Assembly: GCA_024689485.1 (NCBI GenBank)
Contig: JAILDK010000107.1
Span: 1-55,541, forward strand
Length of the DNA: 55,541 nucleotides
Source: Fibrobacter sp.
GTDB taxonomy: Bacteria > Fibrobacterota > Fibrobacteria > Fibrobacterales > Fibrobacteraceae
Direction of reading: 5' to 3'
This document shows positions 37,054-48,033 of this stretch, one piece after another (position 1 is the first letter of the stretch; each line of letters starts with the position of its first letter). The translations under genes were made by a program, and so were the position numbers. Under the pieces are notes generated by a model. It ran no database searches. It had not been told where the DNA came from and was given only the letters and a program-made list of their open reading frames with translations.

Positions 37054-38228
37054 TTGGAAACCTTTTCAAAAAGGATCATCGTTTCCAGGTGAGGAGTTCC
37101 CGGGAAAAGATCCAACGGTTGAATTTTCGAAACTTGGTAATGGGCAATGCGCCACTGGTTCACGGAGCGTGGAATTTCATCCGTACCGCAGAACACATGC
37201 AGAACGCGCTTCGGATTTCTTTTTGCAAGCGCCGGAATCACGCCCTGTTCCACACCTTTACGCGGCGGGTCCAGCAAAACAACTTCCGGTTCGCGGAACT
37301 TCGGAATTCTCTTTTCCACAAATTCGCCGTCGATTTTTCCCGCGAGGAACTTCGCATTCATTCGCTTCAAGAAGCGTGCACTGTTCTTTGCGTATTCAAT
37401 CGAAGGACCTTCCCATTCCACGCCAAAAGTAGACTTCGCCTCTTTGCCGATGCCGAGAGAGAAAAGTCCATAACCGCAGTAGAGATCGAGCATGTGCTCT
37501 TCCGCATTCGGCCGCAAAAGTTCTTTTGCCTTCGAAAGCAGATTCGGAATCTGCGATTCGTTGATCTGGCTAAAGCCTGTGACCGGATACTTCAAACGGA
37601 TATCGCCGAGGTCAAGCGAAAGATCCTTGGGGCCGTAAAGCGTTTTGAACGCAAGCGCATTCGTCGGGCGCTGAGCTTCCAGATAGTAGTCGGAACGGGT
37701 CGGGTCAAAATAAACGTGGGCAGAAAAAATGCCGAGATTCGAAGCGGTCAAATGTTCGCCCATGAGCTTCAGCTTGCGCACCACGGAAGCGTTCATTTCG
37801 TTCACATTAAAAATGACCGTGCGACGCTTGTAAGAGCCTCGAATGATGAGCCAGTTCATCGCTTCGGCAAGAGCCTTGAATACGGGCTTTTTCAAGTAGC
37901 CTTCGACGAGCTTGTAAATCGCGAGATGCTCTTCTGGTTCAAGAGGCTCCGCGTATTCCGAGCGGTCATCGTCTTCGCCAAAGACCAAGGAGAATTCCCC
38001 GTTTTCAAAAATGGCGCGACGCTTGGTCGTTGTACGGTAAGAACGCGACATCGGACTTGCAATCACTTCTTCCGGAGACGGCAAACCGTTCTTTTCGCAG
38101 AACAAGGCAAAGGCTTTGTTCTTCACCGCGAGTTCATCTTTATAGTCCAAAATGGGAATCGAAAGAAGCGGAAGGCTCGAAAGAGTCTTCGGCATCGATT
38201 CCCGAAGAGCGTTAGAAAAAGTGATCAT
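37050..38228 (-). CDS. TrmA/RlmC-D-like RNA 5-methyluridine methyltransferase with altered catalytic loop
   Basis: A 392-residue SAM-dependent enzyme of the TrmA fold. The ATG at 38226-38228 overlaps the upstream stop (ATGA), which fixes the start; the frame extends upstream without support. It has SPMSRSYRTTTKRRA near 58 (TrmA-type N-domain), GFSQINESQIPNLL near 223 (the FxQxN SAM/RNA loop), MLDLYCGYGLFSLGIG near 247 (SAM motif I), and VVLLDPPRKG near 326. The catalytic-cysteine loop that reads YISCNP in the family reads VLHVFCGTDEIPRS here. No [4Fe-4S] cysteines or TRAM domain are seen, so it is closest to the TrmA branch. The RNA target is not predictable. Confidence 0.8.
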   Translation of the reverse strand: MITFSNALRESMPKTLSSLPLLSIPILDYKDELAVKNKAFALFCEKNGLPSPEEVIASPMSRSYRTTTKRRAIFENGEFSLVFGEDDDRSEYAEPLEPEEHLAIYKLVEGYLKKPVFKALAEAMNWLIIRGSYKRRTVIFNVNEMNASVVRKLKLMGEHLTASNLGIFSAHVYFDPTRSDYYLEAQRPTNALAFKTLYGPKDLSLDLGDIRLKYPVTGFSQINESQIPNLLSKAKELLRPNAEEHMLDLYCGYGLFSLGIGKEAKSTFGVEWEGPSIEYAKNSARFLKRMNAKFLAGKIDGEFVEKRIPKFREPEVVLLDPPRKGVEQGVIPALAKRNPKRVLHVFCGTDEIPRSVNQWRIAHYQVSKIQPLDLFPGTPHLETMILFEKVSK

Positions 38229-39028
38229 GGTTCGTTCTTTGAAATGAGAATAACACGGATGCCAGTCGTTGTTGAAGCGTAATCCGGAAGATGATTTTCG
38301 TAAGCGTCCAAAGCGATTTCCTTCGCGACCGACGTCCAATTTCCGCCGCAAAGAGCCGTGTCGCTTGTCCACTCGGCAACGTTTCCGGCAACGTCATAAA
38401 GTCCCCAGGCGTTCGGCAATTTTTGCGCCACGACCTGATACGTATCCGTCAGATTGTTGTACTGTGCATAATCCGAAGCTTTCGCCGTGCCCCAGTAATA
38501 AGTATCCGAAGAGCCTGCACGAGCCGCCACCTTCCACTCCGCTTTTGTCGGGAGTCGAACGGCATTCGCTTCCAAATCGATTTGCACTCCAGCTATTTTA
38601 TTTCCTGCTCCCACAGAGGTGTAAGAATACGCCGTATCAAGCCCTAAAACCTTGGACAGCGCGTTTGCAAAAAGAACAGCATCATACCAGCTCACGTTCG
38701 AAACCGGAAAAGAATCGCCCACCGCTTTCGTCATCTGCGCCGGAAGCGTTCCCATCAAAGCTTCATAATCGGCTTGGGTAATTTCCGTTTGCGAAATCGA
38801 AAATGCAGAAGTTTCAATCCAAGAAACGGAAAGCGTTACCGAGCTCGACGACGTTTTCGAAGCCGAAGAAACTTCCGTCGAGGAAGAACTCGCGTACGAA
38901 GCGGAACTCGTTTTGACAGCGCATTCCGGGCAGTCCAAGCCGCCCGTTTCCCCGTTCGTCGGAGAAGAACAGGCGCCAAGCATTCCCGCAAAAGCGAGGG
39001 CGGCGATTTTAAATTTCCAATGACGCAT
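38225..39028 (-). CDS. SUMF1/formylglycine-generating-enzyme-fold lipoprotein
   Basis: A 267-residue lipoprotein: signal peptide MRHWKFKIAALAFAGMLGAC with the lipobox LGAC, then a serine-rich linker with SSSTEVSSASKTSSSS. The rest follows the SUMF1 pattern: FSISQTEITQADYEALMG near 80, FPVSNVSWYDAVLFANAL near 105, VRLPTKAEWKVAARAG near 155, WGLYDVAGNVAEWTSD near 205, and a final RVI. In the FGE family, catalysis needs two cysteines; here only LCGGNW is near the usual site, so activity is doubtful. Ligand or carbohydrate binding is an alternative, as in C-type-lectin-like relatives. I chose the ATG at 39028 with GGAG upstream; an overlapping GTG one codon before is possible. The stop overlaps the next start. 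Confidence 0.78.
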   Translation of the reverse strand: MRHWKFKIAALAFAGMLGACSSPTNGETGGLDCPECAVKTSSASYASSSSTEVSSASKTSSSSVTLSVSWIETSAFSISQTEITQADYEALMGTLPAQMTKAVGDSFPVSNVSWYDAVLFANALSKVLGLDTAYSYTSVGAGNKIAGVQIDLEANAVRLPTKAEWKVAARAGSSDTYYWGTAKASDYAQYNNLTDTYQVVAQKLPNAWGLYDVAGNVAEWTSDTALCGGNWTSVAKEIALDAYENHLPDYASTTTGIRVILISKNEP

Positions 39029-39040
39029 CACGCTTCTCCA

Positions 39041-42000
39041 TTAGCGAACAACGCCGACGCGGTAGAACTTTTCTTTCTTCTTGCCCGAGGTGAACTTCAC
39101 CTTCAAACGCACCGTGTAAACGTCACTGCCCAAGCGGGAAATGTCCAAATGGTCCGTCTGGTTTGCGCCTTTGTTTGCGGCACCGAGCTTTTTCGAAAAG
39201 ACGCAAAGTCCCGTGATGTCGTAGAATTCAAGCGTTGTTGACTTCGCATTCATGCCGAGCGTATAACGCACATTCGCGACGCCTCCGCGCACCGGATTCG
39301 GATACACAAAGAATTCTTCAATGCTTTCCACGGAATCGCTTGCCGCAGGTTCCGGAAGTTTCGAAGCGTCAAAGTAATTCAAACGTTCATAGCCTGCGCC
39401 CGGAATGTTCCAGGATCTCGCCATCACATCCGCATCCGTCGAAGCCTTTGCCAAATTGTACCCCGAAGCGGAATGACGTTGGAACGCATAAACCTGCGGA
39501 GTCGAAAGGGAATCAATCGCCTTGTCCACAAAGAACGTCATCGGGTAAACCGTTTCGCCGTATTCAAAGTTGCCCGCCGAAATCGGGAAACCATCCGTCA
39601 CCGCCTTTCCCTTGGAATTAAACGCCATCAGCATACCGCCGTTCGTTCCAATGAGAATTTCCGGGAGCGAATCCCCCGTCACATCCATCAACAACGGATC
39701 CGAAAGGAAGGAATATTCCGGCAAGTTTTTCGTCACCGTCGCCGGGAATCCCGAAATCACGACGCCCGAACGGTCAATCGCATAAACCAAATTGTAACCG
39801 ACAAAGACCGCATCCGGATAGCCGTCGCCGTTCACGTCGCCGATGGCAATCGGAGAGGTTTCTTCATCCAGAGCGTTTTTTCCATCGTTTCCACGCTTAA
39901 AAGAACGCGGAGCAAAGATTACCGTCGCAGAATCATTCGCACGGACCATCGTCGCATAACCGCGACTGCCGAGCACAAACATTTCGGAACTACCGTCGCG
40001 GTCAAAATCCGAGCAGGCGACGCGGAAGCTCTGCTTTTTCACGCTGATTAAATTCTTGTTCGTTATCTTCGGAGAGGCGAGCTTTTGCACACGGCCTTCG
40101 TCGCCCTTGTACAGAGCCATTGCAGCGTCCTTGCCGACGATGGCGATGTTGTCCGATTCGCCGTCCGGGCAAAGTGCCATATCCTGCGGAATCAAATTTT
40201 CCGGTAAGTTAAAGGTTTCCACCTTCGCAAGGTTCGAAGTCTTCAAACGATAAAGCTTATTCGAGTCTGCAACATAAACGTAACCGTTCCGAATCATCGG
40301 GCCAATCACAGGCGCCGTCATCGAAGCGAGTTCGCGGTCATACTGTACCTGATCGATTGCAGAAGACAGCACGGTGCGAACAAGACCTTTCTTTTGATGC
40401 AAGCTGAACACGGAATCCTTGACCGCAGCCATGCCGATGAGCTTTCCGTAAGAGCTTCCCAAGCGGTAGAGCGAAACCGTTTCCGTCGAATCCGCATTCG
40501 AAAGGATCGAAGTCTTGACCGTCGTATCGCTTTCCATCAGAGCGTTACCCGAAGCGCTCATCACCTGGAGCGTTCCATCCGCCGCCCCAAAGACGATCAA
40601 CTTTTCGCCATCGCCGACCGACATGCCTTCCGGATAATCCAGCGCCACCGCGCCACGTACCGCCGCATTCAAACCGACATTCTTCGGGAACTCGGAACCG
40701 GAAATCAAAGAATTCGAAGCCCAGGAAATCGTCACCGGAATCGAAGCGGCGGCAAAGTTCACCACACTATCGCCCATAAAGGCATTCGCCGTTTTTTCCG
40801 TGTGATATTCCTTCGCCTTTTTCGCCGTCACGGTAATGCCCGTATAGCCGCCTGTAGTCGTCGCTGTATTGCCGTAGCCCGAAGGTTTAATCGACCAGAC
40901 CGTATCCTTCGGCGAATCTTCACCCTTTCGTACATGCGGAATCAAGTCCGAACCGGAACCGTAATCGTAGGTGTCCTGACCGAGAGCATTCTTAAAAGTT
41001 TTACCAATCGAAAGAATGCCGTCCGCCTCGGCAAGCATAATGCCGTACTGGTGATCGCGCACCGTATCGCCGCCCCAGAAGTTCGCAACGCCGTAGGGCA
41101 AGCCTTCTCTCAAATACCAATCGTTCACCTTCCACACAGCAACACCGCTCGAAGGGAGCCCCGCATCAAAAGAAGAAAGGTTTACGATTACACCGTTCAG
41201 CTTCTTCTTGTTCTTCACGCAATTCTTTCCCTTCGAATCGCAAGTGCTGTCTTCAAAAGCCACGTGCAGACTATCGACCGGGTAAACCTTGGTCACAATT
41301 TCATAATCTTCTTCCGCCGCTACATCTGAAGCCGGCACATACGAAACCGCAATCTTTGCCGAATCGCCAAGCGAACGTTCCCGGTTTTCAATCAAAAGGT
41401 ATTCATTCGAAGAAAGCGGCACCTTTACCACTTCCGTCCCATTTCCAGAACCCGCCGCCACAAGATCCTTCGTAATCGAACCCGAGCTCGGCGGATAAAC
41501 CGTCACAGGCTTTGCCCAGCCCATATAAGAGCGCACCCATGCAGACGGCAAAACCGGGAAAAAGCCGTTGCCCGCATTGTAGCCCGCAAAGTCCATCACA
41601 TCAAAATAACCCAAACGGGAAATGCCCTGCACCACATCATAAGTGTTCGGCATGCCGAGTTCTCGACCGATCTGATAAACAATCGTTCCGTTGATGCCCC
41701 AGTTCAAACCGTCCTGCGAAGCGGTTTCGCTCGTCACCATGATCGTCTTCAACGTATCGAAAGTCGCATTCGGAACGATCATGCCCTTCAAATCCTTGGC
41801 ACAGTTTCGAGTCGTATCCGTCGAATCGAGATAGCTCCAAAAATCCTGCGTCACATAGACGTCCATAAAGTCGCCCTGGGTATCCGCATTGTTCGTCCCC
41901 ATACTTCCGCCGTCGAGCAAACGGCTCGCACCCGCATGGATAATCATAAAGGCGCGCTTGGTATTCGAATTCTTGGACTGCGGAACGATAAACGGGTTAT

Positions 42001-42460
42001 CCAGCGTATCCTTCGACTGGTTCGCTTCGGTCACCGCGTCCCAAATAAAATTCATGTAGTCACGGCTACGGGCTTCGTCGAATTCCGCGGTTTTTTCGCC
42101 TTTCTTTTTCGCGGTACGGTTGTAATCGATAATGTAATGATCAACGGTATAAGGTTCTCCACTCGGAAAGATGCGAGTCTTGATGACCAGGTTTCCGTTG
42201 CTCACCGCCTTGTAATAATTATTCGCAAAATCAAAATGCTTTTGCCAGTACGCAGCACTTGCACGGTGACCGCTCGGATCCAAGCTGTAGTTCGCATTGG
42301 AAGTATCACTGTCCGAATCAAAACGGCCCGTTCCCGTCGTCAGGGAATTATCCGGGGATTCCTGCAAGAACTGCACGCGCAGCGCAAAGATTTCAAGCGT
42401 GTCCACCGCAAAGGAAGACGCGAAAAGAGCGAGCCAGGCGAAAAAGAAAAGACGTCTCAT
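39041..42460 (-). CDS. Giant secreted M6-peptidase-like protein with lost HExxH site, FG-GAP-type repeats and type IX-like sorting tail
   Basis: A 1139-residue secreted protein (ATG at 42460; signal peptide MRRLFFFAWLALFASSFA). The first 330 residues follow immune-inhibitor-A/M6 peptidases: an ASAAYWQKHFDFANNYYKAVSNG region and, near residue 262, VYQIGRELGMPNTYD then YFDVMDFAGYN. The family has VHELGHxLGLPDLYD there, so both histidines and the glutamate are replaced (Y, Q, R). Beta-propeller-like FG-GAP segments follow (FDRDGSSEMFVLG, GDVNGDGYPDAVFVG, MDVTGDSLPEILIG, about 865-1020). The last 90 residues (FVYPNPVRGGVANVRYTL to YRVGVV) match a type A sorting tail. It is likely a surface-anchored non-catalytic binding protein. 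It sits in the run with LolB-like and SUMF1 lipoproteins. Confidence 0.8.
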   Translation of the reverse strand: MRRLFFFAWLALFASSFAVDTLEIFALRVQFLQESPDNSLTTGTGRFDSDSDTSNANYSLDPSGHRASAAYWQKHFDFANNYYKAVSNGNLVIKTRIFPSGEPYTVDHYIIDYNRTAKKKGEKTAEFDEARSRDYMNFIWDAVTEANQSKDTLDNPFIVPQSKNSNTKRAFMIIHAGASRLLDGGSMGTNNADTQGDFMDVYVTQDFWSYLDSTDTTRNCAKDLKGMIVPNATFDTLKTIMVTSETASQDGLNWGINGTIVYQIGRELGMPNTYDVVQGISRLGYFDVMDFAGYNAGNGFFPVLPSAWVRSYMGWAKPVTVYPPSSGSITKDLVAAGSGNGTEVVKVPLSSNEYLLIENRERSLGDSAKIAVSYVPASDVAAEEDYEIVTKVYPVDSLHVAFEDSTCDSKGKNCVKNKKKLNGVIVNLSSFDAGLPSSGVAVWKVNDWYLREGLPYGVANFWGGDTVRDHQYGIMLAEADGILSIGKTFKNALGQDTYDYGSGSDLIPHVRKGEDSPKDTVWSIKPSGYGNTATTTGGYTGITVTAKKAKEYHTEKTANAFMGDSVVNFAAASIPVTISWASNSLISGSEFPKNVGLNAAVRGAVALDYPEGMSVGDGEKLIVFGAADGTLQVMSASGNALMESDTTVKTSILSNADSTETVSLYRLGSSYGKLIGMAAVKDSVFSLHQKKGLVRTVLSSAIDQVQYDRELASMTAPVIGPMIRNGYVYVADSNKLYRLKTSNLAKVETFNLPENLIPQDMALCPDGESDNIAIVGKDAAMALYKGDEGRVQKLASPKITNKNLISVKKQSFRVACSDFDRDGSSEMFVLGSRGYATMVRANDSATVIFAPRSFKRGNDGKNALDEETSPIAIGDVNGDGYPDAVFVGYNLVYAIDRSGVVISGFPATVTKNLPEYSFLSDPLLMDVTGDSLPEILIGTNGGMLMAFNSKGKAVTDGFPISAGNFEYGETVYPMTFFVDKAIDSLSTPQVYAFQRHSASGYNLAKASTDADVMARSWNIPGAGYERLNYFDASKLPEPAASDSVESIEEFFVYPNPVRGGVANVRYTLGMNAKSTTLEFYDITGLCVFSKKLGAANKGANQTDHLDISRLGSDVYTVRLKVKFTSGKKKEKFYRVGVVR

Positions 42461-42479: not shown

Positions 42480-43199
42480 CTAATCTTTCAAAAGTTGATA
42501 GTTCTCAGGAACCGGCAGGCGCCACGTACCGCTCCCCCATTCCGCATCCGTTTGAACCTTTTTAATGCGAATGGTAAGCACATTTTCGCCCCCGCGATAA
42601 GCCCGCGTTTCCGCAGGCGCCACGAGAGTTCCAAATTCCGCATAATCGACAAATTCCAAGCGTTCCGCTCCTTGAGAAAGTTCCACAATGCGACCGTCCG
42701 CATTCCGCGTCGCCACAAAGGGAATCCCGAAGGCATTTGTCCCATAAATCTTCCGATACGCTAAAGAATCCCGCGTCGAATCGATCGTTCCGCCGTGGGG
42801 CAAAGTTTCGCCCCAAAAGAAAGCCGCAATCTGGTGAATATCAAACACCGGAATTCCCGCAAATCCGCCGAGCACATAGCCCTTGCCGACCGCATAAGTC
42901 TTTTGCGTCGAAACGGTCAACGTCCAACCCGTATCGCTCCACAGTACAGACGCGACACCCACCCCCATCGGGCCCGAAAATTCCATGCGATAACGCTTGT
43001 ACGGCACCGCAAACAAAACGCCCGAAAGCGTATGCGAGCCTTCCACGGAATCGTTCACTTCAATCGAGAATTTCGCCTTGAGACTATCCGGCGGGAGCAC
43101 TTCCAAAGACTCCGCGGGTCCCTTTGCCAAACGCGGTCCGCAACCGATAAACATCCAAGTAAGAGCGAAGATCGCGAGTAAAGGGAAGAACTTTTTCAA
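42480..43199 (-). CDS. LolB-like (DUF4292-type) outer-membrane lipoprotein
   Basis: A 239-residue lipoprotein (signal peptide LKKFFPLLAIFALTWMFIGC, lipobox IGC). The mature part looks like the LolB/DUF4292 beta-barrel fold: LKAKFSIEVND near 40, LSGVLFAVPYKRYRMEFSGPMGVGVASVLWSDTGW, then AVGKGYVLGGFAGIPVFDIHQIAAFFWGETLP (about 100-140) and a VELSQGAERLEFVDYAEFG strand. LolB inserts lipoproteins in the outer membrane; whether this protein does so is unproven because LolB is absent in many phyla and its residues are poorly conserved. The start is TTG at 43197-43199 and overlaps the stop of the TPR gene (TTGA), so translation is probably coupled. A gap of 19 bp leads to the M6-like gene. Confidence 0.65.
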   Translation of the reverse strand: MKKFFPLLAIFALTWMFIGCGPRLAKGPAESLEVLPPDSLKAKFSIEVNDSVEGSHTLSGVLFAVPYKRYRMEFSGPMGVGVASVLWSDTGWTLTVSTQKTYAVGKGYVLGGFAGIPVFDIHQIAAFFWGETLPHGGTIDSTRDSLAYRKIYGTNAFGIPFVATRNADGRIVELSQGAERLEFVDYAEFGTLVAPAETRAYRGGENVLTIRIKKVQTDAEWGSGTWRLPVPENYQLLKD

Positions 43200-45223
43200 G
43201 GCGTTTTACCGGAATCCTTTTCTGCGGCAGGAGCCTTGGCGGGTTCGTTCGCAGGTTCTGCTTTTGCGCCTTCGGCAGGTTTTTCCACAGGCTCTTTTTC
43301 TTCGGATTTTTGAATCGCCTGTTTCAAAACTTCAATCTGCTTCTTCGCATTTTCATTTTTCGGATCGACATTCAAAACGCGCTGGTAATAATCCAAAGCA
43401 CGCTTATTCAAAGAAAGCGCCTGACAGATGGCGGCCAAGTGCGCATAGATCGAAGTATCCTGGTAGAACATTTCCTTCAGCGAATCTTCCGCCGCTTCCA
43501 CCTGTTCCATCATCATCAACGCTTCCGGATACTTGCCCTGGCGATACAGAGCCCAGCCTTTCGAATCCTTATAAGCCACATTCGACGGATCCAGTTTCAA
43601 CGCTTCATCGATCAGGGAACTTCCCCACTTCAATTCTTCGGCGTTGCGGTTCAAGTCCACCAGGTAATAGCCCAAGTGATTCTTCGACATCGCATCCTGC
43701 GGATACTTTTCAAAAATCTTCTTAAAGACGACGATCGCGGAATCGATCTGGTTGAACATCAAAAGATTCGAGCCATAGGCAAAGAGCAAATTCTGCGATT
43801 CCCCGCCGATCTTTGCCGCTTCCAAATAATGATCGTCCGCTTTTTTACGGCAAGCCTTTGCCTGGTCCAGCTTTTCGGGCGTCGTCGGAGCACGTTCCAA
43901 TTCTTCCGCATTCATCTGCAAGAAGGTGCCGTATTCATAATGCACGTTCGCCACATCGAGAGTTGCTGCGGCATCGAACTTGCGAAGTTCTTCCAAGTCG
44001 CCCGATTCCTGCACCTTGGCGCGAAGCGTATCGAGCTTCGGATTCGGAAGCAAAGCCTTGTCCAAAACCTTGTAAGCCTTCTGATACGCTCTTGCATTCG
44101 CATAGCGCACAAGCAACGCGTTGCGGTAAGCGATCGGCTCATGTTCATAAGCCTTTTCCAAATATTCCAAAGCCTTGACGGAATCCTTTTCTTCCATCGC
44201 GTAAGCGCTGAGCATGCCAAAAGCCGTAGCCGCATACTTATCCGTCGTCGAAAGGCGCTTCCAGTGGACCAAAGCCTGGTCCTTCTTTTCAAGCTTTGTT
44301 TCGAGCAGGGCAAGGTTCATCAAAACGTGATGCCTATCCGGGTGACGCTTGTAGATTTCCTTCAAGGAATCCACCACCACGGAATCCTGATTGAGTCCGA
44401 CATAGGCTGCCGTCAAAAAGGCGATCGAAAGGGAGTCATCTGCAAAAGTCGTATCCGCGCGGAATTCATTCACACGGTCCACCGCTTCCTCAAAGCGCTT
44501 CATGCCAAAAAGCAACCGGATCTGATTTTCCAAAAAGATACGGTCGCCGCGGGCGTCATAAACTTCGCCGAACAGATCCGCCAAAGCCGAATCCTTTTTC
44601 GCGTTCGCCAGCAAAGAAATCTGCCGTTCGAGCATCGACTGCGGATATCCGATCTGCGGAAGGAGAATTCCATAAACGCGGATCAGTTCGTCATAATTAT
44701 GGACAATTTCAAGCAGCAAAGAATATTCGTATGCGGCGTGAAGATTCTGATCGCTTGAATCGACCGCTTTCTTGTAATAGAAAAGTGCGCTGTCCAAGTT
44801 CGACTGTTCGCTGTACACGCGTCCTAAAAGCGCATACTGATTGCTCGTCTGCTTGCCCTTCAAATTTTTGGCTTTTTCTGCCAAGGCGGCCGCTTCCGCA
44901 GAACCGCCGCGCATTTCCATCAATTCCAAAACAGAGAATGCCAAATAACGGTTTTCCGGATCGGATTCATACGCATGCTGCATGAACTGTTCCGCAAGCG
45001 CATATTCCCCTTGGGTCTGTAACGCAAGAGCGCGCAAATAAGAACTGTGCGCAATCTGCAAACGCAAAAGTTCCGCACTGTCCATCTGCACCGGGTAGCG
45101 CGATTTCTTCGCTTCTTCCGGTGTCGAATTCGCAGGCGCCTGTTGCACCACGACCTGTTTCGAACCGCTACAGGCGACGAGTGCTAAGCTCAGCAAAAAA
45201 AATGCAAGAAGCTTCAGACGCAT
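43196..45223 (-). CDS. TPR-repeat lipoprotein
   Basis: A 675-residue lipoprotein (signal peptide MRLKLLAFFLLSLALVAC, lipobox). The body is about 15 helical tetratricopeptide repeats, for example YALLGRVYSEQSNLDSALFYYKKAV near 132, AFGMLSAYAMEEKDSVKALEYLEKAY near 335, KNHLGYYLVDLNRNAEELKWG near 510, and KDSKGWALYRQGKYPEALMMME near 545. The C-terminal 40 residues are Lys/Pro/Ala-rich. Such proteins scaffold envelope complexes (compare BamD- or gliding-type TPR lipoproteins). The start has AGGGG upstream. It follows the PASTA protein after 9 bp and overlaps the LolB-like gene by 4 bp, so it probably works with them. Confidence 0.82.
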   Translation of the reverse strand: MRLKLLAFFLLSLALVACSGSKQVVVQQAPANSTPEEAKKSRYPVQMDSAELLRLQIAHSSYLRALALQTQGEYALAEQFMQHAYESDPENRYLAFSVLELMEMRGGSAEAAALAEKAKNLKGKQTSNQYALLGRVYSEQSNLDSALFYYKKAVDSSDQNLHAAYEYSLLLEIVHNYDELIRVYGILLPQIGYPQSMLERQISLLANAKKDSALADLFGEVYDARGDRIFLENQIRLLFGMKRFEEAVDRVNEFRADTTFADDSLSIAFLTAAYVGLNQDSVVVDSLKEIYKRHPDRHHVLMNLALLETKLEKKDQALVHWKRLSTTDKYAATAFGMLSAYAMEEKDSVKALEYLEKAYEHEPIAYRNALLVRYANARAYQKAYKVLDKALLPNPKLDTLRAKVQESGDLEELRKFDAAATLDVANVHYEYGTFLQMNAEELERAPTTPEKLDQAKACRKKADDHYLEAAKIGGESQNLLFAYGSNLLMFNQIDSAIVVFKKIFEKYPQDAMSKNHLGYYLVDLNRNAEELKWGSSLIDEALKLDPSNVAYKDSKGWALYRQGKYPEALMMMEQVEAAEDSLKEMFYQDTSIYAHLAAICQALSLNKRALDYYQRVLNVDPKNENAKKQIEVLKQAIQKSEEKEPVEKPAEGAKAEPANEPAKAPAAEKDSGKTP

Positions 45224-45232
45224 GAATTCCCC

Positions 45233-46003
45233 TTATTCAGCAACGACAAGATTTACACGGGAGCCCGCCGAAAGAACAGAACCCGCAGCCGGATCCTGCT
45301 TCAAAACCTGACCGGACTGTTCGCCGGAATTTTTACGACGTTCCGTCTTGCCAATAATAAAACCAGCCGAGCGCAAGTTCGCAAGAGCGACCGTCAAACG
45401 AGTTCCCACGACTTCCGGCATTTCCACCTTCGCCCCATCCGGGCCCGAAGAAAGGAACACGTCCACCGTATCGCCCTTGTGCACCAAGGAACCTTCCGAC
45501 GGATTCGTGCGAACAACTTTGCCCTTCTTGACATTCGTATGCGGCATGGTAAACGTCAGGCCCATATTCAAACCGGCCTTTTCAATCGCCGCCACCGCTT
45601 CCGAGCCGTTCTTGTCAAACAGATCCGGCACGGTAAACTGATGCAAGCCATCGGAAATCGTCAAATGGATGGTGCGACCCGGCTTCGACTTTTGATCAGC
45701 CAGCGGATTCTGACGCATCACAAGATCCATGTCGTAGGTCTTGCTGTATTCACGTTCCTTGGCAAAGAGAACGTTAAAGCCCGCTTCCGTCGCCTTCTGA
45801 ATGGCGGTGAGACTGTCTAAGCCTTCCAGCGCCGGGACGGTCTTTTCTTCGACATGGGCGCGTGCCACAATCGGCATCGCAATCTTATCGAAAACGATTG
45901 CGCACAAAATAAGCACGACTACCAACAGGAGTAGTGCATAAGCCCAAGGCTTCGTCCGAAGAATGCGGTGAATGAGATTTTCTTTGCCCGGCTGATCGGC
46001 CAT
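45233..46003 (-). CDS. Membrane-anchored PASTA-domain protein
   Basis: A 256-residue protein: a cytosolic N-terminus of about 20 residues, one membrane segment (about 20-42, YALLLLVVVLILCAIVF), then three PASTA domains in the periplasm (about 55-118, 122-188 and 192-256). Each starts with a VP or MP motif (EKTVPALEGLDS, FTVPDLFDKNGS, EMPEVVGTRLT) and has the usual pattern of P followed by a small GxxG-like end. PASTA domains bind peptidoglycan fragments or penicillins in kinases and PBPs. No kinase domain is fused here. The gap to crp is 1 bp. Sensing or anchoring at the cell wall for the downstream lipoproteins is inference. Confidence 0.85.
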   Translation of the reverse strand: MADQPGKENLIHRILRTKPWAYALLLLVVVLILCAIVFDKIAMPIVARAHVEEKTVPALEGLDSLTAIQKATEAGFNVLFAKEREYSKTYDMDLVMRQNPLADQKSKPGRTIHLTISDGLHQFTVPDLFDKNGSEAVAAIEKAGLNMGLTFTMPHTNVKKGKVVRTNPSEGSLVHKGDTVDVFLSSGPDGAKVEMPEVVGTRLTVALANLRSAGFIIGKTERRKNSGEQSGQVLKQDPAAGSVLSAGSRVNLVVAE

Positions 46004-46004
46004 A

Positions 46005-46718
46005 CTAGTCCTTCGGGTTCAAATCGTGAAGTTTGCTTTCTTCCGAAATCACGAGGTCCTTGCCCATCAGCGAAATCGTTCCGTTGCGGGAAAGCGTGGA
46101 GAAAACACGGCTCACCGTTTCACGCGTCGTACCGGACATTTCCGCAAACTGCTGCTGCGTCGGACGGTTACGGATCACCGTGACCATTTCACCGTTGCGA
46201 CCGTGAATACGGACACCGCGATCTTCCATCAAGCTCAAGATCGTTCCTGCCACGCGTCCATAAACAGACATCGTCGCAAGGGAACCGATCTGGCGATTGG
46301 CATTGCGAAGACGACGGCTCATCTGCACGAGCAAGCCCGTCGCAAGTTCCGGCGTCGTTTTCAAAAGTTCCAGGAAATGTTCACGGCGAATGATCAGCAC
46401 TTTGGTCGGTTGGACAGCCTTGACGGAAGCGGACCTCGGTTCGCCGTCGATCAAAGACATTTCACCAAAAGAGTCGCCACGCGACAGGAGCGTCAGGATC
46501 GTTTCCTTTCCATCGGTACCCGTCACATAGACTTTAACTTCGCCATCCGCAATGAGGAACAGCGCACGCGTCGATTCATCTTTTTCCAAGATGATCGTTT
46601 CATCGCGCCCGTACTCATTCGTAATGACGAGCGACGCCAACTGAGACAATTGATCTTCCGAAAGTTCCGAAAAGAGATCGACTCCCTTCAGAAGTTCAAT
46701 GCTGTTTTCGTCCGCCAT
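46005..46718 (-). CDS. Crp/Fnr-family transcription regulator
   Basis: A 237-residue regulator. The ATG at 46716-46718 has a strong AGGAGG; the frame extends upstream without support. The cyclic-nucleotide-binding domain (about 8-125) has FSELSEDQLSQLA, ESTRALFLIADGEVKVYV and GDSFGEMSLIDGEPRSASV (phosphate-binding cassette near 85, with RSA in the usual cNMP-binding place). The helix-turn-helix (about 165-225) has RPTQQQFAEMSGTTRETVSRVFSTL. No cysteine cluster for oxygen sensing is seen, so it is not Fnr-like in that respect. Cyclic-AMP binding is possible but unproved. Its place after purA and directly before the PASTA gene (1-bp gap) suggests it regulates the envelope genes. Confidence 0.9.
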   Translation of the reverse strand: MADENSIELLKGVDLFSELSEDQLSQLASLVITNEYGRDETIILEKDESTRALFLIADGEVKVYVTGTDGKETILTLLSRGDSFGEMSLIDGEPRSASVKAVQPTKVLIIRREHFLELLKTTPELATGLLVQMSRRLRNANRQIGSLATMSVYGRVAGTILSLMEDRGVRIHGRNGEMVTVIRNRPTQQQFAEMSGTTRETVSRVFSTLSRNGTISLMGKDLVISEESKLHDLNPKD

Positions 46719-46737
46719 AAACTTCCTCCTAATCGAA

Positions 46738-48033
<1,296 letters not shown>

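Follow-up and report, generated by a model that had tools for sequence, protein, structure and literature searches.

What is a large secreted protein kept for when every catalytic residue of its peptidase-like domain has been replaced? The question is raised by a gene of Fibrobacter sp., found in the window (the whole stretch of 55,541 nucleotides that was analysed), whose product is called M6i here. The open reading frame runs from an ATG at 42460 to a stop at 39041, and translation might also start at a TTG six bases further upstream. The gene and its parts are:

39041..42460, minus strand: M6i gene, secreted pseudo-peptidase of 1139 aa (open reading frame; NF052323, 264 bits; AlphaFold2 model)
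42404..42460, minus strand: Sec-type signal peptide, residues ~1-19 (MRRLFFFAWLALFASSFAV), read off the sequence
40691..42409, minus strand: M6-like domain, residues ~18-590 (NF052323 and TIGR03296 matches; domain model; M6 homology via orthologues)
41636..41680, minus strand: pseudo-active site VYQIGRELGMPNTYD at residues 261-275 (aligned with 138 orthologues and 8 active paralogues)
41588..41599, minus strand: Met-turn-like segment VMDF, residues 288-291 (named by analogy)
39326..40690, minus strand: beta-propeller of the FG-GAP type, residues ~591-1045 (PF13517 and PF01839 above cut-off; Foldseek)
39044..39325, minus strand: type A C-terminal sorting domain of the type IX secretion system (T9SS), residues ~1046-1139 (PF18962; TIGR04183; seven modelled strands)

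Domain layout

The signal peptide, as read from the sequence, has neither a lipobox nor a Cys, and M6i is thus not a lipoprotein. The sorting tail passes the Pfam cut-off for PF18962 (31.7 bits, cut-off 27), falls just below that of TIGR04183 (22.4, cut-off 23), and forms seven strands in the AlphaFold2 model. Together, the signal peptide and the type A tail support a location at the cell surface. Both the tail and the FG-GAP segments had been recognized by an earlier sequence-only reading of this DNA, and the Pfam matches, which for the FG-GAP segment exceed the cut-offs of PF13517 and PF01839, bear it out.

The model of the whole protein, built on 47 orthologues, reached a pLDDT of 88.1 and a pTM of 0.87, and that of the M6 domain alone 86.4 and 0.91. 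In Foldseek, propellers dominate the matches of the full model, for example the eight-bladed Tako8 (TMt 0.70) and BamB. Genus g4 (L109-L120) has shorter orthologues of ~760-880 aa, in which much of the middle propeller is absent and the M6i domain and the tail are kept.

The pseudo-active site

M6 peptidases are defined by an HExxH zinc site (MEROPS M6, PF05547), which was not found in the M6i of the window. The protein reads Y-Q-x-x-R instead, with Y262, Q263 and R266 at the H, E and H positions. The register is secure, because eight M6 proteins paralogous to it, all from the same family and with an intact HExxH (e.g. AHELGHLLGLPDLYD in L160), can be aligned over the motif without gaps. These controls (L158-L165) show that active-site-bearing M6 paralogues also occur in Fibrobacteraceae. 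The earlier claim that all three residues are replaced is thus correct; the stretch it had pointed to, nt 41648-41680, lies in the right place, yet covers only residues 261-271 of a motif that extends over 41636-41680 (261-275). Downstream of the motif, M289 is present in 136 of 138 M6i orthologues and in every active paralogue.

Could the domain still be an enzyme, working through other residues or another metal? Many conserved polar residues are left (H175, D197, E245, Q249, E358, N359, R360), but several of these positions are conserved also in an alignment containing HExxH-intact orthologues, and so look structural. Moreover, neither zinc histidine remains, nor does the catalytic Glu, and the third zinc-ligand position is D, N or Y among the orthologues. 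We regard retained activity as very unlikely.

Relationship to M6 peptidases

The best family match of M6i is NF052323, “T9SS-dependent M6-like inactivated metalloprotease” (2.3e-78, 264 bits), for which the cut-off of 600 bits was not reached, neither here nor in any of the 168 Fibrobacterota genomes. The M6 domain model TIGR03296 also matches, under its cut-off (3.5e-13, 50 bits, cut-off 110.8), and a Pfam search gave no PF05547 match for the window protein. As judged from the NF052323 and TIGR03296 matches, the likeness to M6 is more than chance.

Neither the window protein nor a profile of the M6 domain from the phylum (A4) found an M6 match in the PDB, and the link therefore needed orthologues from outside Fibrobacterota. 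In a contig profile search, the best 80 matches all came from Fibrobacterota or Ca. Raymondbacteria. A wider search reached M6i orthologues outside the phylum, several of which retain HExxH. Two of these intact orthologues were scanned and both exceed the PF05547 cut-off, and a profile built from the out-of-phylum orthologues matches the structure of immune inhibitor A (4yu5) at 4e-7. With the modelled M6 domain, the best Foldseek match in the PDB was the zinc peptidase OgpA (E 2.3e-4, TM 0.20/0.29 only); zinc-peptidase matches were weak, and 4yu5 was not among the 50 matches listed. The comparison of predicted structures supports the M6 relation only weakly.

Age and conservation of the loss

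M6i is present, mostly as a single copy, in 160 of the 168 Fibrobacterota genomes and in all 89 of good quality. In the alignment of 138 distinct orthologues from the phylum, none has HExxH. The first site is N in 117, S in 15, Y in four and H in two, the second is Q in 136 and L in two, and the third is R in 132 and otherwise Q, H, K or C. The phylum consensus is N-Q-x-x-R, and a divergent further family (G166) reads NQIAR too. A conservation of Y/Q/R across the phylum, which the sequence-only reading had proposed to check, applies with few exceptions to Q and R, but not to Y. This residue is confined to the genome of the window (G000) and to G142, G143 and G144, and the sister species (G140, G141) and Fibrobacter intestinalis (L226) carry N. 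On this distribution, the Y of the window is a late replacement of N that is restricted to a few species and does not typify the family.

Residues 251-300 are the best-conserved stretch of M6i, Q263 is invariant in one orthologue alignment (A2), and dN/dS within the genus is ~0.06-0.08. The top conservation of the pseudo-site together with the low dN/dS indicates that the site is maintained by selection. The sequence comparisons support a loss of the catalytic site that is ancestral to Fibrobacterota and under purifying selection. A recent loss was rejected, given the spread of the gene over 160 genomes, the lack of HExxH in all 138 orthologues, and the dN/dS. Intact orthologues, which the earlier reading would have taken as a sign of recent loss, do exist, but only outside Fibrobacterota, and the loss is therefore old. 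What had been called a pseudo-peptidase is strengthened as such. The view of M6i as a peptidase gene in decay is hardly credible and was also rejected: the catalytic residues are lost, but the frames are open throughout, and both the dN/dS and the invariant Q263 speak against decay.

Two orthologues (L309 and L308, from G222 and G365) read H-Q-x-x-H, with both histidines retained and Gln in place of the catalytic Glu. They may represent an intermediate stage of site loss.

Gene neighbourhood in Fibrobacteria

Around M6i, the window holds the following genes:

38225..39031, minus strand: lipoprotein with FGE-sulfatase fold, next downstream of M6i (PF03781, 99 bits)
42480..43199, minus strand: LolB-like lipoprotein, next upstream of M6i (weak PF03550 match, E 0.008, below cut-off)
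43196..45223, minus strand: TPR lipoprotein (Pfam TPR; conserved order)
45233..46003, minus strand: membrane protein with three PASTA domains and no kinase (PF03793; conserved order)
46005..46769, minus strand: Crp/Fnr-type regulator (PF00027 and PF13545)

Pfam and the sequences agree with the earlier description of the neighbours as envelope lipoproteins. The FGE-fold lipoprotein adjoins M6i in part of Fibrobacteraceae only. It scores 50 bits with the GldK model (cut-off 350), its fold being common to PorK/GldK, and also resembles TIGR02171. The LolB-like gene upstream of M6i is conserved in part of the class Fibrobacteria, as is the whole order purA-crp-PASTA-TPR-LolB-like-M6i, which occurs in several Fibrobacteraceae genera, including the window, and in genus g14. 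The operon thereby places a kinase-less PASTA-repeat membrane protein between conserved genes of a Gram-negative phylum.

This conserved order could mean that M6i takes part in assembling the envelope or outer-membrane lipoproteins, alongside the TPR and LolB-like proteins, and not in T9SS anchoring. Such a role seems improbable to us, as M6i persists where the order is lost, namely in genera g4 and g15, families f2 and f5, and all deep families. In the window's own class, M6i adjoins neither porU nor porV. The same genome holds a PorU (394 bits, just under the cut-off of 420) and PorV-family proteins, among them a barrel protein with an inserted propeller (G000:C34:5290-7398; L166:5050-7401).

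The porU and porV gene rows

In the deep Fibrobacterota families the order is c3-PorV-M6i-c2. A PorV-family gene (NF033709, 185 bits, cut-off 90) lies directly upstream of M6i in 27 of 28 loci. The next gene, c2, encodes a Peptidase_MA protein with a TolB/PD40 propeller and an intact HExxH, whose C-terminus, on our reading, resembles an outer-membrane barrel. It follows M6i in 20 of the 22 deep-family loci whose contig continues, and the two genomes without c2 beside M6i carry it elsewhere. Unrelated families outside Fibrobacterota have the row porU-porV-M6-c2. In one of these rows the matches are all above cut-off: PorU with 775 bits (420), PorV with 282 (90) and M6i with 685 (600).

The PorV-family barrel of the deep families has its own peculiarity. 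In the representative examined (L106:2979-5384, G025), a beta-propeller is inserted after the first strands, with a weak PorZ-like match inside the insert. Such propeller-inserted proteins occur throughout Fibrobacterota and in a small number of families beyond it. Genus g4, with its short M6i propeller, was suspected to have lost the PorV propeller as well; this was rejected, since its PorV proteins measure 724-765 aa where complete. Directly upstream of the chimera lies a small membrane protein (L106:2348-2992 and equivalents) with a conserved PPFHxGCxC-like motif, for which no family match was found.

Given the PorU-PorV-M6-c2 row, M6i looks more like a subunit of the machinery for T9SS attachment than like a free adhesin. 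The label of surface binding protein, given to M6i in the earlier reading, thus holds for the surface, as supported by the signal peptide and the tail, but its “binding” part is too loose.

Site loss and c2

Among the porV-linked loci outside Fibrobacterota, HExxH is intact in seven, none of which has an adjoining c2, and lost in 19, of which 18 are followed by c2 (Fisher p 1.2e-5, a figure that ignores shared ancestry). A full-length c2 was found in 14/14 lost-site genomes checked, including G220 and the window's own, in both of which it is non-adjacent. The c2 of the window's genome (G000:C5) lies on another contig than M6i, has 1180 aa and an intact HExxH. In none of the nine intact-site genomes checked was a full-length c2 found, only partial matches. 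This link between lost site and c2 rests on perhaps two origins, and its cases are therefore not statistically independent.

In the tree analyses, the Fibrobacterota M6i clade (support 100/100) is separate from the lost-site clade of NF052323, and in one tree it stands beside intact-site proteins (92/90). A single loss common to both lost-site clades is worse by a delta lnL of 12.3, with an AU p of 0.0625. The phylogeny thus favours at least two losses, a single one being disfavoured but not rejected, and the loss in the NF052323 clade was probably separate from that in Fibrobacterota.

A broader history would be as follows, and we offer it tentatively, at somewhat less than even confidence. 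T9SS bacteria of many lineages would share a surface row porU-porV-M6(-c2), with an M6 that was active in the ancestor. Its site would have died, twice or more, wherever an HExxH-intact c2 was present, and the dead M6 would then have become a permanent structural part of the sortase complex.

Proposed role of M6i

The attachment complex of Porphyromonas gingivalis contains PorU and PorZ, two CTD proteins that the PorV and PorQ barrels hold at the surface (PMC8545088). M6i most likely belongs, by analogy, to a PorU/PorZ-like complex in which its dead cleft holds a polypeptide. For the specific role, we infer with slightly better than even confidence that M6i is a non-catalytic subunit of the T9SS surface attachment complex, together with the PorU sortase and a PorV-family barrel. 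M6i would be exported by Sec and taken by its type A C-terminal domain through the T9SS, across the outer membrane. It would then remain at the surface, presumably docked on the PorV-type barrel. The pseudo-peptidase cleft would probably hold a polypeptide without cutting it, either the CTD junction of a cargo protein or a partner protein (PorU or c2, for instance), while the propeller would make additional contacts. The proteolytic step formerly done by M6 may be carried by c2.

Type A tails are, however, also found on ordinary T9SS cargo, and many Fibrobacter surface enzymes are proposed as such (PMC6851124). M6i, with its signal peptide and type A tail, could accordingly be a dead peptidase serving as an adhesin or as a glycan or fibre binder, which would leave PorV and be anchored by PorU in the way of cellulases; FG-GAP propellers are indeed known in adhesins and lectins. 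We consider this a serious but rather unlikely alternative. Unlike variable adhesins, M6i is near-universal and mostly single-copy over hosts and habitats, and the place of M6 in porU-porV rows is fixed in many families. Furthermore, its most conserved part is the pseudo-site and not the propeller.

Known systems and significance

M6i is not categorically new in kind, because NCBIfam already names it as NF052323, a family with the same dead M6 domain, propeller and type A tail, and with a porV neighbour as in the deep Fibrobacterota. The NCBIfam neighbours of that model include PorU2 and PorV2. The Fibrobacterota branch differs in its scores (264 bits for the window protein, cut-off 600) and in its site, which is almost uniformly N-Q-x-x-R, whereas the NF052323 clade has various degenerate forms (HQxxH, LMxxH, ANxxS, KLxxN). 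With the M6/InhA peptidases (PF05547; immune inhibitor A 4yu5) it shares a homologous catalytic domain, as shown through the out-of-phylum orthologues, but all three HExxH residues are replaced and PF05547 does not match the window protein.

Like M6i, PorZ of P. gingivalis is a non-catalytic surface protein with a propeller and a CTD, partnered by PorU and a PorV/PorQ-type barrel (PMC8545088). PorZ, however, lacks a peptidase domain and carries two propellers, whereas M6i has an M6-like domain in the place of the first propeller, and an NCBIfam search gave no match of the window protein to the PorZ model NF052228. PorU (NF033707) is likewise a CTD-bearing protein of peptidase fold docked on PorV, and stands in the same row as M6 outside Fibrobacterota; it is an active C25-type cysteine peptidase (PMC8545088), in contrast to the dead metallopeptidase M6i. 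In the open-access literature, judged by titles and abstracts, we found no paper on an M6 pseudo-peptidase with PorU/PorV. Neither did we find there the Fibrobacterota branch, the near-fixed NQxxR, the cross-family porU-porV-M6-c2 row or the link with c2, which appear to be new here.

What is known of the T9SS surface complex comes mainly from pathogens and gliders among the Bacteroidota. If our reading is true, many other T9SS bacteria, including rumen cellulose degraders, would have an extra conserved module, composed of a dead M6 and c2. A near-universal Fibrobacterota gene that lies below current model cut-offs gains a name and a test, and its past would be a clear and testable history of an enzyme turned scaffold.
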